NCBI RefSeq assembly: GCF_012912005.1
Contig: NZ_JABBEA010000009.1
Location: 62,001-126,000, forward strand
DNA: 64,000 nt
Direction of reading: 5' to 3'
Source: Paenibacillus sp. SZ31
GTDB taxonomy: Bacteria > Bacillota > Bacilli > Paenibacillales > Paenibacillaceae
This document shows, one piece after another, positions 1 to 9,604 of this stretch. The position numbers and the translations under genes are program-made. How positions within the stretch are numbered: position 1 is the first letter of the stretch; every line of letters begins with the position of its first letter. The notes beneath the pieces were generated by a model. The model was given only the letters and a program-made list of their open reading frames with translations, searched no databases and was not told where the DNA came from.

Positions 1-1349
1 AGCACGGAAGCAGCTGCGGACGTCAGCAGTATTATTAAAACAGAGCTTTTGCTGTTTTTGATCAGACTGCGCAGGCCGATTACTAAAGAGATAGGCAGTC
101 GACCAAACGAGCCCGCATTTGCGAGCGGTGAATTCATTCGTCGCGCCATGCGTACATTGTCGCTCTCCGACATACCGTACCGAATGGCCTGAACAGGCTC
201 GATCATACGAGCTTTTCTGGCGTATAACACGACAAATGCAATAACCAAGACGAGTAACAGCAGCCCTACAACAATAGCAGCTCCAATGCCCTCAATTGGA
301 AGATCACCCTGGCCAGTCCGCAGGGACGATACGGAGATGTTGATGATGAATTTGGAGACGAATACGCTAAGTACCAGCCCGGGAAGAACAGCGATGATGG
401 ACAGCAGGGCATATTGAATGACGTAGGTACCAATGGTGACCCGGGAAGTGAGTCCCAGCGATTTAAGGATACCTATCGTTTTGTAGTTGGCCAGAATGGC
501 ATCGGATATGGTGAAGCCAATCGTAATGAGGGCAATAATCATCATGACGGCCCCTAAGAAAATCATAATGAACCCGACGATCTGATTGATGATCAGATAA
601 AAGGATGAGATACTTTCAAATTCCATTTTGGTTTCCAGAAATGGGGCACCCGTCTCGCTTGTATACCGATCCCAGTAGCTGGAGTTCGTACTGTAATCAT
701 CAAAATGGATGCCCATCATGTGAATATCTTTTCCTGCAAGCGTACTAAAATCATTTTGGTAATCCATACTATTCATCCAAATTCTTGCCGTATTGGTGAA
801 CGGTGCTCCATAAGGAACATCCACAACAATAGCTGAGACTGCGAGGTCAAGTGTGGTAGATCCAGTTTTGAATTGAATGGTATCACCGACAGCGATGTTA
901 TAGCCATTCGCCATGGAAGTTGGGATCCATACGCTTCCTTGTTCAGGAGCCGAATGCTGTGTACCACTTGCAAATACAAGTTCATCTACACTCCACGGAG
1001 GAGGCGGGGTATTCATCATGTACAGATAAAGGTTAGGGATGTCAGTGCCGCCAAAAGTGATGCCCGACAAGATGCGGTAAGTAAGCAAAGGTGAGACTTG
1101 AACACCGTTCTGGGCAGCCCACCAGTCATGCACAGTTGGGGGATCATTCAGTCCTTTGTCGAACGTCAAGATCTGATGGGACCCGTTGGTCCGACTATGC
1201 ATTTCCTTGAACTGGTTACCCGTATTGGCCAGAATGATGACAGATGTGGACACCAGTAGTGTAGACAGCAAAATAAGCAAGGTGATAAACAAATTTTGGA
1301 TTTTATTTTTACTCAGATACGACAAGCTAAGTTTAAACATGACCGCCAT
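1..1349 (-). CDS. ABC transporter permease, FtsX/MacB type (C-terminus outside window)
   Basis: The frame is open from 1349 to the window edge, so about 449 N-terminal residues are present and the C-terminus is missing. Residues about 10-35 form one membrane segment. About 200 extracytoplasmic residues follow, then a cluster of three hydrophobic helices typical of an FtsX core, and then the start of a second half (GLRSLIKNSKSS). The ATG at 1349 has a GGGGAAGGA Shine-Dalgarno six bases upstream and lies 2 bp after the stop of the ATPase gene, so the two are translationally linked. With that ATPase it should form a MacB/LolCDE-like exporter or mechanotransmitter. The substrate is unknown. The adjacent two-component system suggests response to cell-envelope stress or an antimicrobial peptide, which is inference. 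Confidence 0.85.
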   Translation of the reverse strand, partial: MAVMFKLSLSYLSKNKIQNLFITLLILLSTLLVSTSVIILANTGNQFKEMHSRTNGSHQILTFDKGLNDPPTVHDWWAAQNGVQVSPLLTYRILSGITFGGTDIPNLYLYMMNTPPPPWSVDELVFASGTQHSAPEQGSVWIPTSMANGYNIAVGDTIQFKTGSTTLDLAVSAIVVDVPYGAPFTNTARIWMNSMDYQNDFSTLAGKDIHMMGIHFDDYSTNSSYWDRYTSETGAPFLETKMEFESISSFYLIINQIVGFIMIFLGAVMMIIALITIGFTISDAILANYKTIGILKSLGLTSRVTIGTYVIQYALLSIIAVLPGLVLSVFVSKFIINISVSSLRTGQGDLPIEGIGAAIVVGLLLLVLVIAFVVLYARKARMIEPVQAIRYGMSESDNVRMARRMNSPLANAGSFGRLPISLVIGLRSLIKNSKSSVLIILLTSAAASV

Positions 1350-1351
1350 CG

Positions 1352-2110
1352 TTATTCCTTCCCCGTAACTAAAGCGAAGATGATCGCTTCACGATCTTGA
1401 ATTTGATGATCGTCATAGGTATTGAACTCAAGGATTCCGCCTATCTTGCCGTCCTGAATGTAGATCAGGCGATCTGCCCGGCAGGCGGCTTTAATATCAT
1501 GCGTAACCATAACTACGGACTGTCCTTTTCGATGGATAGCCGTGAGGATATCCAGAACGGCTGTGCCGTGTTCCAGGTTCAGGCTTCCGGTCGGTTCGTC
1601 CGCAAAGATGATATCTGGCGAGTTGATCAAAGCCCGTGCAATGGCTGCTCGTTGCTGTTGTCCTCCGGAAGTTTGGGAGGGGAGGCGGTTACGCTGTCCA
1701 TCAATATCCATGGCATTCATCAGCTCAGCAGCCCTGGATTGGATGTCCTTCTTTTTGTTTCCAGCGATATATCCCGGTAAAGCAATGTTCTCTTTGATGG
1801 AAAGGTCCGGGACCAGATTGATGCTCTGATAGATATAACCGATTCGGCGGGTGCGGAAGTGGGACATTTCTCCTTCACTGTAAGCGTCAATCCGTTGGTC
1901 ACGAAAATAAACCTCACCTGTTGTGATCTGATCCAGTCCGCTTAGCAGATATAAAAGAGTTGATTTGCCAGAGCCAGAGTTACCCATGATCACCGTGAAT
2001 TCCCCTTCATAGATATCGAGATCGACATTACGGATGGCATGATGTTGCTCACTTCCGCTGTTGTACGTCTTGCACAGATTCTGTGCATGGATAATCACTT
2101 TTTTGGACAA
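1352..2110 (-). CDS. ABC transporter ATP-binding protein, MacB/LolD family
   Basis: This 252-residue ATPase has Walker A GNSGSGKST (residues 43-51), Q-loop YQ (about 94-95), a signature reading TSGGQQQR (147-154) rather than LSGGQ, Walker B IIFADE (167-172) and an H-loop histidine in VTHD. The length is normal for LolD/MacB-like subunits. The permease starts 2 bp after its stop, so they form one unit. A 146-bp gap separates it from the upstream kinase gene, so it may have its own promoter controlled by the response regulator. It should energise the FtsX-type permease at the inner face of the membrane. The family is clear; the substrate cannot be read from the sequence. Confidence 0.93.
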   Translation of the reverse strand: MSKKVIIHAQNLCKTYNSGSEQHHAIRNVDLDIYEGEFTVIMGNSGSGKSTLLYLLSGLDQITTGEVYFRDQRIDAYSEGEMSHFRTRRIGYIYQSINLVPDLSIKENIALPGYIAGNKKKDIQSRAAELMNAMDIDGQRNRLPSQTSGGQQQRAAIARALINSPDIIFADEPTGSLNLEHGTAVLDILTAIHRKGQSVVMVTHDIKAACRADRLIYIQDGKIGGILEFNTYDDHQIQDREAIIFALVTGKE

Positions 2111-2256
2111 GTCGAATCACTCCCGAGTGCAGTATAGGATTCATTCTAGAGGAGAGATGTTGAGGAAGCCTTATCAAATAATGAATAAAGTATTACAGGC
2201 AAACGGATTGAAGCGGAAGTTAAAGGCATTTGATAAAATAGCCACGCCAGTGTGGC

Positions 2257-3705
2257 TTAGCAGATGGGCAGGTAGAACCGGAAGGTCGTACCTTGTCCTT
2301 CTTTACTAGTGAAGGAAATATGGCCTCCATGTGCTTCAATAATGCTTTGGCAGATAGAAAGTCCCAGTCCCGTGCCTTCCTGAACACGTTGGTCTGTATG
2401 ACTCACTTGGCCTCTGAAATAACGTTGGAAAACAAACGGCATATCCTGTACACGTATGCCCTGACCCGAATCGGCGATGGTCACTTTCAGGTGCCCGGAT
2501 TCCAGTTCAATGGCTATACGTATCGTGTCTCCCGGAGCTGTATGTTTGAGGGCATTGGCGACAAGATTGGAGATGACTTGTTCAATTCGAGTAGTGTCGA
2601 TAGCGATTAATACATTGGGAATGTGGTTGGGCTTGAGCCCGTCATAGATGAGGCCTCTTGTGAGTATCACATGCTCAATAGGTTTCAACATGGCGTCGAG
2701 TACAGGACCACTGTACATTTCACGGGGTTCCACTGATATCTGCCCCAGTTCCTGAAGTGCATGAACCAGCAGGTCCTCCACAAGTCGGGCTGTTTTATCC
2801 GTATGGGTTCGCATGACTCCCATGTATTCCATTAGCGTCTCCTGATCGTTGCATAGTCCTTCCTCAATAGCTTCTATGTATGCTTTTATCGTGGTAATCG
2901 GTGTCTTAATATCATGAGATATATTGGTGATGAGTTCCTTTTGTGCTTGTTCCTGCTGGATGCGTAGCTCGTGCATATGTTTGATTTCTGTACGCATCAG
3001 GTCAAACATGGCATACACTTCGCCCAGCTCATCGGTCCGGTTGTACTGAATCTTTTCTTCATAATTTCCTTTGAGGATGGATTCCGCATGCAGCTTTAAT
3101 TGATGGATGGGAGAGAGGAGCTGCTTGTTCAGTTTTCGTTTCATCCAGAATAGAAATAAGCTCAGAATCAGTGACAGGAGCATGAGTGCGCTAATCCATA
3201 TCACCGGAAAAGTCATCGATTGCTGAACCGTAACCATGGCTTGGGGGATGGAAAAGATGGCATTGCCGATCTGACTTCCCACGGGTCCGTCCATCACGGG
3301 AAACGCAATATCAAGGGATTCGTTACCGTCCGCAGCCTGCGCGGCATGATGCAGATCATAATGAAGAGCTGAACGCAGGTTAACTTGAGTTCCTTCAGAG
3401 GTAGGGACGGAGGACAGAGTTACTGTTCCATCCAAGTTCACATAGGTAAGCAGAACCCCACTTTCGCTGGCGATGGCCCGTATATCTTCATGAATATTTT
3501 GTTCACCCAGAAGCTGATGATTTTGCTCCAAAGCGAGCAAAATTGGATTGATCTTGAGGCGAACCTGATTCATGGACAGGTTGGATTGTTCAGAATTTCG
3601 ATTTTGGAATAGCATTATCGACAGCGCGAGGATACTTAAAACCATAATAATCAGAAGGCCAAGTGTTGTTAACAACCAGCGTCTGGACCAGATGTTCAAT
3701 GACAT
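2257..3705 (-). CDS. Sensor histidine kinase with HAMP domain
   Basis: This is a 482-residue membrane kinase. TM1 is at about 11-33, followed by an extracytoplasmic sensor of about 130 residues and TM2 at about 166-188. A HAMP linker comes next, then the H-box NISHDIKTP with phospho-acceptor H264. The N-box (NLVANALKHT), G1 (ADSGQGI), an F-box (VFQRYFRG) and G2 (GTGLGLS) are all intact. It lies 20 bp downstream of the response-regulator gene, so the two are co-transcribed. The kinase autophosphorylates and passes phosphate to the OmpR-type partner. The ABC exporter downstream is the likely target. The signal is unknown, and the large sensor domain separates it from the small intramembrane kinases of Bce systems. 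Confidence 0.93.
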   Translation of the reverse strand: MSLNIWSRRWLLTTLGLLIIMVLSILALSIMLFQNRNSEQSNLSMNQVRLKINPILLALEQNHQLLGEQNIHEDIRAIASESGVLLTYVNLDGTVTLSSVPTSEGTQVNLRSALHYDLHHAAQAADGNESLDIAFPVMDGPVGSQIGNAIFSIPQAMVTVQQSMTFPVIWISALMLLSLILSLFLFWMKRKLNKQLLSPIHQLKLHAESILKGNYEEKIQYNRTDELGEVYAMFDLMRTEIKHMHELRIQQEQAQKELITNISHDIKTPITTIKAYIEAIEEGLCNDQETLMEYMGVMRTHTDKTARLVEDLLVHALQELGQISVEPREMYSGPVLDAMLKPIEHVILTRGLIYDGLKPNHIPNVLIAIDTTRIEQVISNLVANALKHTAPGDTIRIAIELESGHLKVTIADSGQGIRVQDMPFVFQRYFRGQVSHTDQRVQEGTGLGLSICQSIIEAHGGHISFTSKEGQGTTFRFYLPIC

Positions 3706-3725
3706 GTGGGTGCCTCCAATCTCGC

Positions 3726-4427
3726 TTATTCATAATTGAATTTGTAACCGACACCCCATACCGTCTTCAGAACGGTCGGATGTGAGGCATCTGCCTCGAT
3801 CTTTTCTCGTAGTCTGCGAATGTATACGGTTACGGTGTTTTCATCCCCATAGGTTGCATATCCCCAGATGGCGTCGAGTAACTGGGCTTTGGAGAAAACT
3901 TGATTCTTATGGCTTGCCAGATAATGAAGTAATTCGAATTCCTTGGCAGACAGGGAAACTTCCGATCCGTTCACTGTAACTTTATAGGCTTTTTTATCAA
4001 TCACAAGGTTTCCAAGACGCAGTAGATCTGTTCTGTCCTGATCCAATGTCATGCTGTCATAACGTCTAAAGTGGGCATTGATCCGTGCTAACAGTTCGCT
4101 CAGAGAGAAAGGTTTGGTCATATAATCGTCTGCTCCAAAACCAAGGCCAAGTACCTTATCGGTATCACTACCTCTGGCACTTAGAATGAGAATGGGGATA
4201 TTATTACGCCGTCTAATCTCTCGGCACACCTCGATTCCGTCCATGTCTGGAAGCATAATGTCCAGAATGATGTAATCCGGTTGAATAAGCTCCATGATCT
4301 GAAGTCCATCTTGACCAGTCGCTGCCACGGCGGCTTCATATTGATTTTTGGTCAGATAATCTCGGAGAATGCGTGAAATATCCGGTTCATCCTCGATGAT
4401 GAGGACTTTGCGCTGGTGGGTTAACAT
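3726..4427 (-). CDS. OmpR/PhoB-family response regulator
   Basis: This 233-residue protein has an N-terminal receiver with the acidic pair E12/D13 (IIEDEPD), phospho-acceptor D56 (ILDIMLPD) and conserved K in MTKPFS. A C-terminal winged helix carries the RRLREKIE recognition region and the VGYKF terminus. It is first in a unit with the kinase, and an FtsX-type ABC exporter follows. It probably activates that exporter. The start at ATG 4427 has a weak GGAG six to seven bases upstream. Family assignment is firm; the regulon is inferred from context. Confidence 0.94.
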   Translation of the reverse strand: MLTHQRKVLIIEDEPDISRILRDYLTKNQYEAAVAATGQDGLQIMELIQPDYIILDIMLPDMDGIEVCREIRRRNNIPILILSARGSDTDKVLGLGFGADDYMTKPFSLSELLARINAHFRRYDSMTLDQDRTDLLRLGNLVIDKKAYKVTVNGSEVSLSAKEFELLHYLASHKNQVFSKAQLLDAIWGYATYGDENTVTVYIRRLREKIEADASHPTVLKTVWGVGYKFNYE

Positions 4428-4659
4428 ATGTATCGCTCCAGTATTAGAGTATCTATATAAGATGTTTGGTTGGTTGAAACTGTAAGAAAATCTATGGTTT
4501 TAACTATACAGGTTTGATGTGGATGAGTCATGAGGGAGGTGAGTAAGTTACTATAATGTGTAGAAAATAAAACTCAAGAGCCTTCTCTTTTTACTCGCGG
4601 CTGATGAACTAAGCCAAATAGTTGAACGAGAGGCCCTCCAGTATTATCAATCATTCAAT
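4428..4659. other. 232-bp spacer between the response regulator and the RT gene
   Basis: No open frame with a ribosome site is seen. On the minus strand, the 3' flank of the RT-nitrilase gene contains several short complementary stretches between about 4558 and 4640. These include an AGAG/CTCT hairpin followed by TTTTATTTT, and a GCCTCTC segment that can pair with GAGA-A-GGC. This could be a terminator for the RT gene or a small structured RNA. A TATAGT box near 4550 (minus) could be the -10 of the two-component unit. None of these can be settled by eye. Confidence 0.35.
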
Positions 4660-7600
4660 CTATCTTCCTTCGAATCCCGCAGGTGAAGTTTTAACTTTTT
4701 TTCCACTTGTTGCTTTGACTTTTGATTTGTTTTTAAACATTGTAGGATCAATATCAAACATACTAATTGCAAGTTGATTACCACCATGAACGTGTGCGAT
4801 TAACTTGTCATGCCCTTTAAAAGGAGCATAAGCTGCGGAACCACCGAACTCACCTGTATTAGCTAAAATGACAGGTTGGTACATATGATAGTTTAAAGCT
4901 GTAATCATGTTATCAAAAGTATCTACATCTTGATTTAGTGCAGAAATAACATACATATCAGAAATATCTCGGAGATCCGCGGCTTGCTCAAGGTCAGTAG
5001 AATCATAACAAATGGCACCTGCTACTCGAATCCTTCTGTTTCCTGATTTTTGAAACTCTACTAGTAACTGATAAGGGCGGTGTCCTTGAATCTCCATGGA
5101 CTCTTCATAAACAGTCATATTTTTTTTACCTTGCCATACGGTAACATCAGGGTCATCGTCAGAGTATAGAATCCATATAGCTTGGTTAACCAATACTTTA
5201 TCTGTAGTTCTTTCTTGAAAGCAAACACCTGCGAATATACTAGCTTTAGTCTGTCTTGATAATCTTTTTAGATAATCGATATCATCTGCGTGAACCGAAA
5301 GTTCTGGGAAAACAATGAGATCAACAGCATTTGCAGCTTCTCGTTTATTAACGACTGAATTTGATGATGCAGCTTGCCATGCAGCTAAATGTTTATTTAC
5401 TAGATGGCAAACATCAGCGATATGTCCACGGTGTTTCCTCCTAAATTCAGGTGTCCAGTAAATGGGGTTTTTCAAATTGAAATCTGACATGTTAGGAAGT
5501 AGAGATTGAACAATAACAGCCCTAAATTGATTATCTTCTTCTCTCTTTTTGTTGATAACTGGTAACACATACACTGGAGTATTTGAAAGCTTACCGTAAA
5601 GCTGCTGTTGTGTCTTTTTTCGACCTTTTATAATCTTCATTAATTCGACGCGTGTGGGTGCTTCACTAAAGTTTTTAAGGTGTCTATCGAAATAATGAAT
5701 ACCAGGCCACTGAAGCATGCGAAGAAGGAGTTCACTTAGCCAAGGTGATAGGGGTAATGGTTCTGTGAAAACACCTTGAGCAAACACAGACATACCAAAA
5801 CGTCGGGTAAACCATGTTGATTTCAATCCTTTGTAGCCGTAAGAGATCGAATGATCTTGTCTAATCAAATATGAGTGTGTTGTAAAGTCATATTCTCCAG
5901 TAATACAAGAGCGTATAATGCTTCCTAGATTATAGAGCCAAAAGTACTCTTCTTTGACCCAAGGCTTATCATATAAACGATCTAATGAAAGTGTAGAATT
6001 ACTACTACTGGAAAGTGTGAGAGTAAAAGAATCCTTTATACTCGGATTTTGTATAGAATCAAATTGCTTGAACTTAATTTGTACATCTTCAAGTGAAAGT
6101 CCGCTTTTAGAATTCAATCTATTATAGAAGGTAGGATCTAATAATTTTTCAATTAAAATCAGCAGTGCATTCTCCTGTTGGAAAGGATTATCGGGACTAC
6201 TGATAATAGTTGCTAGGTTATAACTAGTTTTATTTGTTGATTTTTGTGACAATACTTTTTTGATATTGTCTCTGTAAGCGATAGAAGAAAGCTCTGGTGC
6301 TTCGTTCAGTACCTCTTTTTCTATTTTAATATGTTTGAAAACTTCATGCACCAAATCGGGTCGATTTATGGATAAAACCTTTAATGTTGTGATTTTTAAA
6401 TCCATGCTCAATAAGTTGTAGAATTCAGAAATCCAAAGTGCAAATCTAGTCACATTTGGTTTGAGTTGTTGCACGACTAGACTTGTCACAAGTCGATCTT
6501 CAATTTTCTGTATATCTACAGGTTCAATAGTTTCATAAAGCAAAGACTGATGAAGAGCAACATAATGTTCCATTGCTTTTAGACTTTCCCAGTTTTTAAA
6601 TGCATATGGTTGATCCAGTGAAGCTAGATATAGTGCAGCCTGCTGGTTTAGGTACCATGAGCATTGAGTAGCATTTTTTAATATTTTTCGAGCAAAAAGA
6701 GCGAGTGTCTCGCGAAATGCTTGAACATCTATATTTTGCGGATAGTCCTGTTTATGGCGATATCCTATCCAAACTGCACTTGAACATAGGAGATCGGCTG
6801 CTACATATTCCATTGCAAATTTATGTTTTTTTTCATTGTTATTAATTAAAAAAGAAAAAGGAAGAATAAATATTTTAGATTCTAGAGCATCAATAACTAA
6901 ACTTAAAAGAGACGGGTCGGGATAGAGATCTAGTCCGAATTTAAGTAAAGAGGAAAGAGCTGGATTCCTTGACCAAATGGAAATCAATTTGCGTGAATAT
7001 AGTTCAAGATCATGATCAATACTTGCAACATTTCCACTTGTCTGTTGCGATGTATTCACAAAATCTTCTTCAGGAATGTTAATTCCTTTCTGTGTTCTCA
7101 GAGCATCAACTAGTCGCTTTGCAGCGAAACGTTTAAGTGTATCTGAGTTGACATCTACGTTTAATACAGAGATTCTTGATAGAGCGAGAGTATTGAAACT
7201 GTTTTTTGGCTTCTCATCAAGGTGTTCCGAAAGCTGCAATAGACTATCTAAATCACTTATGATCTGTCTAATTGAGTCTATATCAGGAGTACCACTGATT
7301 ACATTTTGAAGCATATTCATACGAGCTGACAACTCATTTTGGCTAGATATCTCCTGATAGCTTTGAATTTTTGTTTTGTCTTCATTGATGCACAGGGGTT
7401 CACTATGTTTAGTAACTTTCATTGAACTGAGATGTGTAGATAGACATAAGCCGACTTCCTTAGTAATTACGCTTATGAGTTCTTGAGGCAATATATCATC
7501 GCTTGCTTCAATAACTAAACGCATGTCATCTACATATCTACAATAATCCCGAATTCTAATCTTGTTTGATAAGTTTTCAGTTTTAATTTCTTTATGTAAA

Positions 7601-8577
7601 AGTTCACCAACTTTTTTATCGAATCCCATCATATATATATTTGAGAAAAATCCTCCAGCTACAAGACCCTGAGGCAAGCCTTCTGGTAAACTTTCAATCT
7701 CAAATATTTCCATTGATTTCATTTTATCATCAGGATCCCATTTCCATGAGAATATGTTCTTGAGACTTTTCCAGAATGAATTGTCATTTCTTAAAGAAAG
7801 ATCAGTAATTTGGTATTTAGAAGCATAATCCTCGTATAAACGCTTTGTTTCGTTAATCAAAGCTGTTCTGTCTATTCGATCATAGAATTTCTTAAGATCA
7901 AGCGTAATTACATACTGCTTCATACTAGGTTGTGCTATTGAATTATAGTACTGGCACATAAATTTTGGCCTTTTTAAGAATTGTTGATAGTCTTCATAGT
8001 ACATTCGATAACTTTTAGAATTTCCCCAGCCAAATGTTGCCTTGTTTTTTCCGTCCATAGAATCCCAGTGACAGTGCAGACGATTTCCATAACTAAAAAC
8101 ACTTTGTTCTTGTGCTTCGACGAAATTATCACCGTCAGTAGGTCCCTGTAGAGTTTCAATTGCATCAGCCAAGCACAACATTGCTGCCGTAGCAATGGAT
8201 TGGTCCCGAATTCCTATGTGTGCTAACGGGCGTAGACTAAAGTCCTCTTCAATATCAATATCTAAATCTGAAGTCTTATCTGTAGGTTTCCAGTAAACAT
8301 TCCCATCTTTAGGAAACTCCCAAGTAGAGGTTTTGGGCGCAGGTACCAGCATTAAATTATCGGGTTTGTACACATCAGTTTCTAGTTGCTCTGCCCAAAG
8401 AGTAAGATTTTTTTCCAAAGTAATAGTTGATAGATCAAGTTCTAACACATCTGCATACCAGTTATGTCGCCTGATGTAACTGTGAGATTTTTTCCAAGCT
8501 TGCGCTAAGATAACAGGATCGACTAAGTATTCTTTTCGTGGAGATAAGGCCAGGTACTTTTCATTAATGATTGTCAT
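4660..8577 (-). CDS. UG1-type reverse transcriptase fused to a nitrilase-like domain (DRT type 1 antiphage protein)
   Basis: This 1305-residue protein has two recognisable modules. The RT is N-terminal: motif A DLKKFYDRID (227-236), motif B LPQGLVAGGFFSN (301-313), motif C YVDD (348-351) and a motif D-like NEDKT (398-402). The last 230 residues match the carbon-nitrogen hydrolase fold, with a possible Glu-Lys-Cys triad: E1092 in FPELS, K1151 or K1152 in KKNMT, and C1190 in GAICYD. About 600 residues between them look helical and match nothing I recognise. RT plus C-terminal nitrilase is the UG1 class of 'unknown group' RTs, known as DRT type 1, a single-gene phage-defence system. The ATG at 8577 follows GGAGGAATT. 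The gene is markedly more AT-rich than its neighbours, has its own promoter and no partner gene. All catalytic residues are present, so it is probably functional. Its template, product and nitrilase substrate are unknown. Confidence 0.93.
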   Translation of the reverse strand: MTIINEKYLALSPRKEYLVDPVILAQAWKKSHSYIRRHNWYADVLELDLSTITLEKNLTLWAEQLETDVYKPDNLMLVPAPKTSTWEFPKDGNVYWKPTDKTSDLDIDIEEDFSLRPLAHIGIRDQSIATAAMLCLADAIETLQGPTDGDNFVEAQEQSVFSYGNRLHCHWDSMDGKNKATFGWGNSKSYRMYYEDYQQFLKRPKFMCQYYNSIAQPSMKQYVITLDLKKFYDRIDRTALINETKRLYEDYASKYQITDLSLRNDNSFWKSLKNIFSWKWDPDDKMKSMEIFEIESLPEGLPQGLVAGGFFSNIYMMGFDKKVGELLHKEIKTENLSNKIRIRDYCRYVDDMRLVIEASDDILPQELISVITKEVGLCLSTHLSSMKVTKHSEPLCINEDKTKIQSYQEISSQNELSARMNMLQNVISGTPDIDSIRQIISDLDSLLQLSEHLDEKPKNSFNTLALSRISVLNVDVNSDTLKRFAAKRLVDALRTQKGINIPEEDFVNTSQQTSGNVASIDHDLELYSRKLISIWSRNPALSSLLKFGLDLYPDPSLLSLVIDALESKIFILPFSFLINNNEKKHKFAMEYVAADLLCSSAVWIGYRHKQDYPQNIDVQAFRETLALFARKILKNATQCSWYLNQQAALYLASLDQPYAFKNWESLKAMEHYVALHQSLLYETIEPVDIQKIEDRLVTSLVVQQLKPNVTRFALWISEFYNLLSMDLKITTLKVLSINRPDLVHEVFKHIKIEKEVLNEAPELSSIAYRDNIKKVLSQKSTNKTSYNLATIISSPDNPFQQENALLILIEKLLDPTFYNRLNSKSGLSLEDVQIKFKQFDSIQNPSIKDSFTLTLSSSSNSTLSLDRLYDKPWVKEEYFWLYNLGSIIRSCITGEYDFTTHSYLIRQDHSISYGYKGLKSTWFTRRFGMSVFAQGVFTEPLPLSPWLSELLLRMLQWPGIHYFDRHLKNFSEAPTRVELMKIIKGRKKTQQQLYGKLSNTPVYVLPVINKKREEDNQFRAVIVQSLLPNMSDFNLKNPIYWTPEFRRKHRGHIADVCHLVNKHLAAWQAASSNSVVNKREAANAVDLIVFPELSVHADDIDYLKRLSRQTKASIFAGVCFQERTTDKVLVNQAIWILYSDDDPDVTVWQGKKNMTVYEESMEIQGHRPYQLLVEFQKSGNRRIRVAGAICYDSTDLEQAADLRDISDMYVISALNQDVDTFDNMITALNYHMYQPVILANTGEFGGSAAYAPFKGHDKLIAHVHGGNQLAISMFDIDPTMFKNKSKVKATSGKKVKTSPAGFEGR

Positions 8578-8667
8578 ATAATTCCTCCATGCTTATTTGT
8601 TAAAGGCAGATAAATTTGTTCATTTACATTAATTATTTATATTTGTAAAAGATGCGGCTTGATTTTC

Positions 8668-8700
8668 ATTATACTATATTGAAAAATAGTCTATAAAAAT
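8668..8700 (-). promoter_or_regulatory. Probable promoter of the RT-nitrilase gene
   Basis: On the minus strand a perfect TATAAT (8668-8673) lies in a very AT-rich stretch. It would start transcription near 8660 and give a leader of about 80 nt before the GGAGGA/ATG of the RT gene. The -35 is weak (a TTTATA-like hexamer about 18 bp upstream). No extended hairpin is obvious in the leader. Confidence 0.45.
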
Positions 8701-8773
8701 GGTTTAAGAAAGAGAAGGTACTTAGAAATTAATAAAGTGATTGAAAAGCACATAATCAAAAATTATAAGCACG

Positions 8774-9604
8774 TCATACATGCTCCAGATCATCGATCGG
8801 CTCATGCTGCTTCGATTTGAGATATTCCGCCGGAGACACACCAAAGTGCGCCCGGAATACCCGATGGAAATAGGAATAGCTTGCAAAACCGCAGGATTCG
8901 GCAATATGCTCCAGTGTCATTTCACTGTATTTCATACGTTCCAGTGCTGCATTCAGACGGATCTCAATCGCGTATTGAATCATGGTCTGGTTGTAGTGCT
9001 CCTTGAATAAACGGACTGCACGTGACAGGCTGAGTCCGGCATAACGTGCGGCTTCTTCAAGTTTAAAGGTAACCGTGGCATGCTCCTCAATAAAGCGTTT
9101 TAACTTTAGCGCAGAGGAAACTGCCCGATCCGTCTGAATATTCTCGGTGATTGCCCGGTCGATATATAGACATAATCCGCGTAGTAACGCATCCTTTAGC
9201 TCCGCATTTTCCTCAAGAGGTCCACGACGCTTCTCCAGTAGCATATTTCGCCATAGGCTGATCAGCTTATCATCCAGTCCAATTCGGCTTACGGTAGCTC
9301 GTTGCTGCCGTTTCCACCAGTGATCGATCCAGCTGCCTTCGCAGAATAGATAATAATCTCCACTGGACAAACGTCCTTCCTTATGTGGTTCATCGACCAC
9401 GAGATGATAGTCGTCGCCAGGCTTCAAGAGTAACAAATCCCCGCTGGTCATCCTGAATTCTTCATCCTGTACATATACTTTGCACGAGCCTTCGGTCTGC
9501 AGGCGGAACAGATAAGTTTGCAGCTCGCCCTTCATATTATGAGTGAACGCCTTATAGTGGTATGAGTAGTCACAGATCAGCACAGATGTCTCTAATGTAT
9601 CCAA
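8774..9604 (-). CDS. AraC-family transcriptional regulator (cupin sensor)
   Basis: This 276-residue protein has an N-terminal cupin-like sugar-sensing region (about 20-110, including LLLLKPGDDYHLVVDE). The C-terminal double helix-turn-helix has a second helix with the AraC signature (IAESCGFASYSYFHRVFRAHFGVSPAEYL, split as IAESCGFASYSYF and FRAHFGVSPAEYL). It is transcribed away from the isomerase and dehydrogenase genes at 9980 and 10812, so it probably controls them from the 375-bp shared intergenic region. The inducer is likely a sugar or polyol, but nothing in the sequence names it. The start at 9604 has a GGGGGA about 12 bases upstream, which is long; an alternative start cannot be excluded. 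Confidence 0.88.
   Translation of the reverse strand: MDTLETSVLICDYSYHYKAFTHNMKGELQTYLFRLQTEGSCKVYVQDEEFRMTSGDLLLLKPGDDYHLVVDEPHKEGRLSSGDYYLFCEGSWIDHWWKRQQRATVSRIGLDDKLISLWRNMLLEKRRGPLEENAELKDALLRGLCLYIDRAITENIQTDRAVSSALKLKRFIEEHATVTFKLEEAARYAGLSLSRAVRLFKEHYNQTMIQYAIEIRLNAALERMKYSEMTLEHIAESCGFASYSYFHRVFRAHFGVSPAEYLKSKQHEPIDDLEHV

Follow-up and report, generated by a model that had tools for sequence, protein, structure and literature searches.

What is a single gene that joins a reverse transcriptase (RT) to a nitrilase doing in Paenibacillus sp. SZ31, and how closely does it follow the mechanism worked out for a distant relative? The gene, drt1, lies at 4660..8577 of a 64,000-nucleotide stretch of contig NZ_JABBEA010000009.1 (the window, to which all coordinates refer; every feature placed below is on the minus strand). 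It is one intact frame of 1305 residues and a TAG stop, with no internal stops, that opens with an ATG at 8577-8575. A GGAGG at 8584..8588, read from the sequence upstream of the ATG, is the likely ribosome-binding site, and frame 1 of the plus strand over the same coordinates is full of stops. An earlier reading made from the letters alone (the sequence-only reading) had described a single intact RT and nitrilase frame of this length without stating its strand, and the frame is as described. Judged by its sequence, the gene is an intact, full-length and ordinary-looking DRT1 (UG1, Drt1a), a member of a known phage-defence family.

The class assignment, which the sequence-only reading had also made, is upheld by profile, homology, phylogeny and fold. 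The Drt1a profile of PADLOC (PDLC03745) matches residues 4-1302 with 1367.1 bits, covering positions 4-1176 of its 1176, and the solved DRT1 (PDB 9YFD) aligns with the protein from end to end (phmmer, E 1.7e-160). In an RT tree of 34 rows, in which few UG classes are sampled, 18 UG1 rows share one side of a branch with 92/90 support, which is below the starred level; the tree does not place the Paenibacillus protein outside UG1. The protein falls inside a Bacillota set (97/97), which sets it apart from the DRT1 of 9YFD, and its nearest row is a DRT1 of Brevibacillus parabrevis (L058, 100/99). Structure comparison of the C-terminal domain found the expected nitrilase, at the level of fold. The same comparison of the RT half gave low TM-scores to a large number of RTs, including DRT2 and DRT9, and does not separate the classes; 9YFD is not among the 50 matches listed in any of these comparisons. 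Of the Pfam families, RVT_1 alone matched the protein and CN_hydrolase did not, so that the profile check suggested with the sequence-only reading came out positive for Drt1a and negative for CN_hydrolase. The latter miss is not an absence of the fold, since the fold was found structurally. The NCBIfam matches are to other RT models alone, far under their cut-offs, and a UG6 search gave no match anywhere and is uninformative.

The mechanism of DRT1 was described, with structure 9YFD, by Neville et al. 2026 in June 2026 (PMC13275509). According to the parts of that paper used here, DRT1 synthesises DNA without a template, primed by its own serine 402; the resulting DNA adducts drive assembly into tetramers and into filaments that are dormant, and the nitrilase is closed by a lid of C-terminal residues. 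Defence is lost in the RT mutant D324N/D325N, the nitrilase mutant C1116A and the priming mutant S402A, as well as in K1219A, A1223F and deletions of the tail, and T4 escape mutants map to dda. The sequence-only reading had regarded both what the RT copies and what the nitrilase cleaves as open questions. The first is largely answered for the family, because DRT1 makes its DNA from its own serine without a template (PMC13275509).

The Paenibacillus protein is built in the same way as the DRT1 of 9YFD, which is likewise a single gene with the order RT, helical repeat, nitrilase and lid tail (1229 residues against 1305 here), and the residues reported as essential for catalysis, priming and the lid are also present. 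To place these residues we used two sets of relatives. The first comprises 81 rows, namely 79 loci with an open reading frame (ORF) of more than 1000 amino acids, 9YFD and the Paenibacillus protein; the second comprises 121 database proteins including the Paenibacillus protein. The relatives of the first set were found on genome contigs with an alignment as query (190 matches), a single-protein query of the same contigs having found none. The loci were the best 80 of the 190 contig matches plus L004, and two with no ORF of that length (L110, 446 amino acids; L131, 932 amino acids) were left out of the alignment. L101 and L133, whose contigs have 4612 and 3688 bases, were kept, with matches to residues 1-1196 and 96-1303 only, and both L004 and L059 were counted, which seem to be one identical sequence. 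Alignments were made with MAFFT, of 122 and then of 201 rows.

The N-terminal and RT region (residues 1-409, 7351..8577) matches the RT fold and carries D227, a QG pair at residues 303-304 and the YVDD aspartates D350-D351 (7525..7530), which correspond to D324/D325 of 9YFD. It is followed by a priming loop (residues 410-521, 7015..7350) that aligns with the unresolved residues 382-478 of 9YFD (PMC13275509). Within the loop lies S428 (7294..7296), the predicted DNA-priming serine, which stands opposite S402 in the MAFFT alignment. The alpha-helical repeat region (residues 522-998, 5584..7014), whose boundaries we set ourselves, aligns with residues 479-930 of 9YFD. The nitrilase domain (residues 999-1283, 4729..5583) is delimited by profile, by homology to 9YFD and by fold, and contains E1092 (5302..5304), K1151 (5125..5127) and a second glutamate, E1158 (5104..5106), which we take to be the Glu-Lys-Glu of the nitrilase superfamily, together with the nucleophile C1190 (5008..5010), equivalent to C1116 of the 9YFD protein. 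The sequence-only reading was right in its choice of E1092 and C1190, and of the two lysines that it had offered, K1151 and K1152, the catalytic one is K1151. Among the nitrilase residues, C1116 alone is numbered in the passages of the DRT1 paper drawn on here (PMC13275509). The lid tail (residues 1284-1305, 4663..4728) completes the protein; it contains P1299 and, in the places of the lid residues K1219 and A1223 of 9YFD, K1296 and A1300.

Across the relatives D227, D350, D351, S428, E1092, K1151, C1190 and A1300 are invariant (81/81 and 121/121 rows), E1158 is kept in 80/81 and 121/121 rows, K1296 in 80/81 and 120/121, and P1299 in 80/81 rows of the first set, to which the following counts also refer. 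The lid core (1219-1224) has a mean conservation of 0.825 against 0.574 for the nitrilase, and S428 is the sole serine, threonine or tyrosine that never varies among residues 400-504 of this protein. The DRT1 of Brevibacillus parabrevis (P0007), with 55% identity over its full length, keeps the priming serine and lid residues as the Paenibacillus protein does. In these alignments, then, the putative priming serine and the lid are kept across the sampled DRT1s and the stacking contacts vary among relatives. A W957-P958-G959 triplet (5701-5709), lying between the helical repeat and the nitrilase and equivalent to W889-P890-G891 of 9YFD, is also invariant (81/81 rows). One relative that keeps the priming serine, L113 (match 682-4491), is on a 5.9-kb contig labelled as a Crenarchaeota archaeon metagenome-assembled genome, a label that could be a binning error.

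By analogy with Neville et al. 2026, we consider it very probable that the gene is a single-gene defence system that works in the following way. Without a template, the RT would add short DNA to its own serine, most likely S428. The adducts would drive the assembly of tetramers, building the nitrilase (E1092-K1151-E1158-C1190), and also entry into dormancy, with the nitrilase covered by a lid that an adjacent protomer supplies from its C-terminal tail (K1296...A1300). This lid would be released when phage replicates, and the freed nitrilase would attack an essential metabolite, so that the infected cell is stopped. For the Paenibacillus protein we infer priming, oligomers, lid control and abortive infection from that study. 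Its authors liken DRT1 to retrons, in which non-genomic DNA keeps an effector dormant, but the adduct of DRT1 is covalent, on serine, and made without a template (PMC13275509). None of the retron RNA families of Rfam matched the window, and the Paenibacillus gene is not a member of that group.

Several observations weigh against so direct a transfer. Identity to the 9YFD protein is just 376/1194 aligned residues (RT 141/377, loop 23/95, helical repeat 84/430, nitrilase and tail 128/292), the helical repeat being the least conserved of the regions compared, and no Bacillota DRT1 is among those studied in the cited literature. In the tree, the UG1 branch has the shortfall in support given above, and 7 of the 34 rows are flagged for odd letter make-up. 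The pairing of S428 with S402 depends on the MAFFT alignments; HMMER, which pairs GT with GT, sets P431 opposite S402 instead. We rejected the idea of a lost primer (S402 to proline), as MAFFT places a two-residue gap before the serine, which is then invariant, and it is the many-row alignment and this invariance that favour S428. T480 is nonetheless always a hydroxyl residue (T in 77 rows and S in 4 of the 81), and conservation alone therefore leaves it as a possible primer. The published contacts between stacked tetramers are identical at 4/40 positions, the tail-contact residues R1210 and Y1215 of 9YFD are replaced by N and T, and S359 stands in the place of E333, the sole stacking residue whose mutation had more than a modest effect (PMC13275509).

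These last differences lend some weight to a protein that keeps the published priming and lid and is held dormant by adduct-bound tetramers alone, or by other contacts, rather than by the filament of 9YFD. In the 81 rows the stacking segments are more variable than their regions on average, at percentiles 21.2, 1.2, 20.5, 14.1 and 35.2 of same-length region windows, while the priming serine, the nitrilase residues and the core of the lid vary hardly or not at all. However, four of the five segments are not extreme, the alignment of the helical repeat is weak, surfaces of homo-oligomers often drift while the assembly persists, and defence was little reduced in the published contact mutants other than E333R (PMC13275509). 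We regard this form of dormancy as a minority possibility. Somewhat less likely still is the broader conjecture that serine priming and a lidded nitrilase are the constrained core across DRT1, that the stacked filament of 9YFD is the dormancy of one branch, and that the Paenibacillus protein uses other contacts and has a trigger different from the T4 Dda helicase.

The remaining alternatives depart further from a DRT1 that primes on its own serine. The RT-fold matches to DRT2 and DRT9 structures, with a weak Drt2 profile match (45.4 bits), would suit an RNA-templated system like these, with a noncoding RNA next to drt1, but Rfam has 0 matches in the window, and the drt1 flanks of 200-230 nt gave short matches only (best E 0.058) when compared with those of the fetched loci with more than 60 nt of flank, L110 and L131 included. 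Drt2 is also placed elsewhere in the RT tree, and the class 3 DRTs (DRT1 and DRT5) are reported to make DNA without added template and in the presence of RNase A (PMC13275509), all of which makes templating by RNA very improbable. RT classes 1 and 5 both bear a C-terminal nitrilase (myRT paper, PMC8934634), the UG5-nitrilase RTs likewise having both parts in one protein, and the nitrilase part here matches the UG5-nitrilase model with 143.5 bits. Set against 1367 bits for Drt1a and a tree in which the three UG5 rows group by themselves (100/99), a UG5 relative in place of UG1 is hardly credible. It is also improbable that the gene is intact but silent, or carried as cargo with no part in defence: by eye, no other defence gene was seen among the window ORFs, for which no profile scan was made, but the frame is long with all active residues, and the same spot in a genome of the same species bears defence genes.

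With the DRT1 reading, a mechanism detailed for one protein is extended to a Gram-positive member far removed from it. In the survey the sampled relatives leave the RT aspartates, S428, the nitrilase residues and K1296/A1300 unchanged and change the stacking contacts freely. A Bacillota DRT1 would open a second host, with other phages, to the search for the nitrilase substrate and the phage trigger. Searches of the open-licence literature listed no study of a Paenibacillus DRT1, and we saw none of the Brevibacillus parabrevis protein. The single paper there that names Paenibacillus and also gives DRT in full, PMC10740426, has its DRT classes, in the parts used here, in other genera.

The gene is AT-rich, with 35.9% GC against 45.6% for the window, and sits between a response regulator gene (3726..4427) and an AraC-type regulator gene (8774..9604), which border a variable spot at 4428-8773. 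Of 75 genomes in the genus, at least 41 have both border genes on the same contig and within 50 kb, a count read by hand from regulator matches of more than 100 bases, with G042, G043 and G047, whose nearby matches are shorter and weaker, left out. The gap between the border matches is below 350 bp in 28 of these genomes, so that the spot is near-empty, and larger in 13. It is 4.3 kb in the drt1 genome, 1.5 kb in G052, 2.5 kb in G034, G035, G038 and G064, and 4.2-4.4 kb in G004, G005, G033, G053 and G068, where the contents are an ABC-transporter module and one more conserved gene. In G048 (L051, L052) 39.9 kb of very large peptide-synthetase-like genes occupy the spot; the names given to non-defence cargo come from translations inspected by eye.

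In G040, a genome of the same species, the gap is 20.8 kb (L039, L040), and the island in it has BREX genes. It encodes BrxF, BrxC (1407 bits), PglZ and BrxA, a piece of an N6/N4 methylase, a regulator of the WYL type, an McrC homologue with an AAA protein next to it, pPIWI_RE, a GTPase of the dynamin family and a patatin. When four genomes were searched for BrxC, G040 gave a match and G000, G001 and G002 gave none. The spot is variable, and defence genes are not its only content. In G040 the AraC protein matches over residues 1-266 and has a different end, so that the borders do not fall at one constant nucleotide, and no direct repeats of at least 9 nt were found between 4381-4700 and 8561-8900. 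Exchange by recombination in shared flanks seems the likeliest route into the spot.

Full-length DRT1 is present in 2 of the 75 genomes, this one and G059. No transmembrane, drt1b-like partner lies beside drt1, both neighbours being the regulator genes. Among the 79 relative loci, a crude hydropathy scan found an adjacent same-strand ORF with at least two predicted transmembrane stretches at three, two of which, L004 and L059, are the apparently identical pair. Their 297-residue same-strand neighbour of drt1, with two such stretches, is a possible drt1b-like partner.
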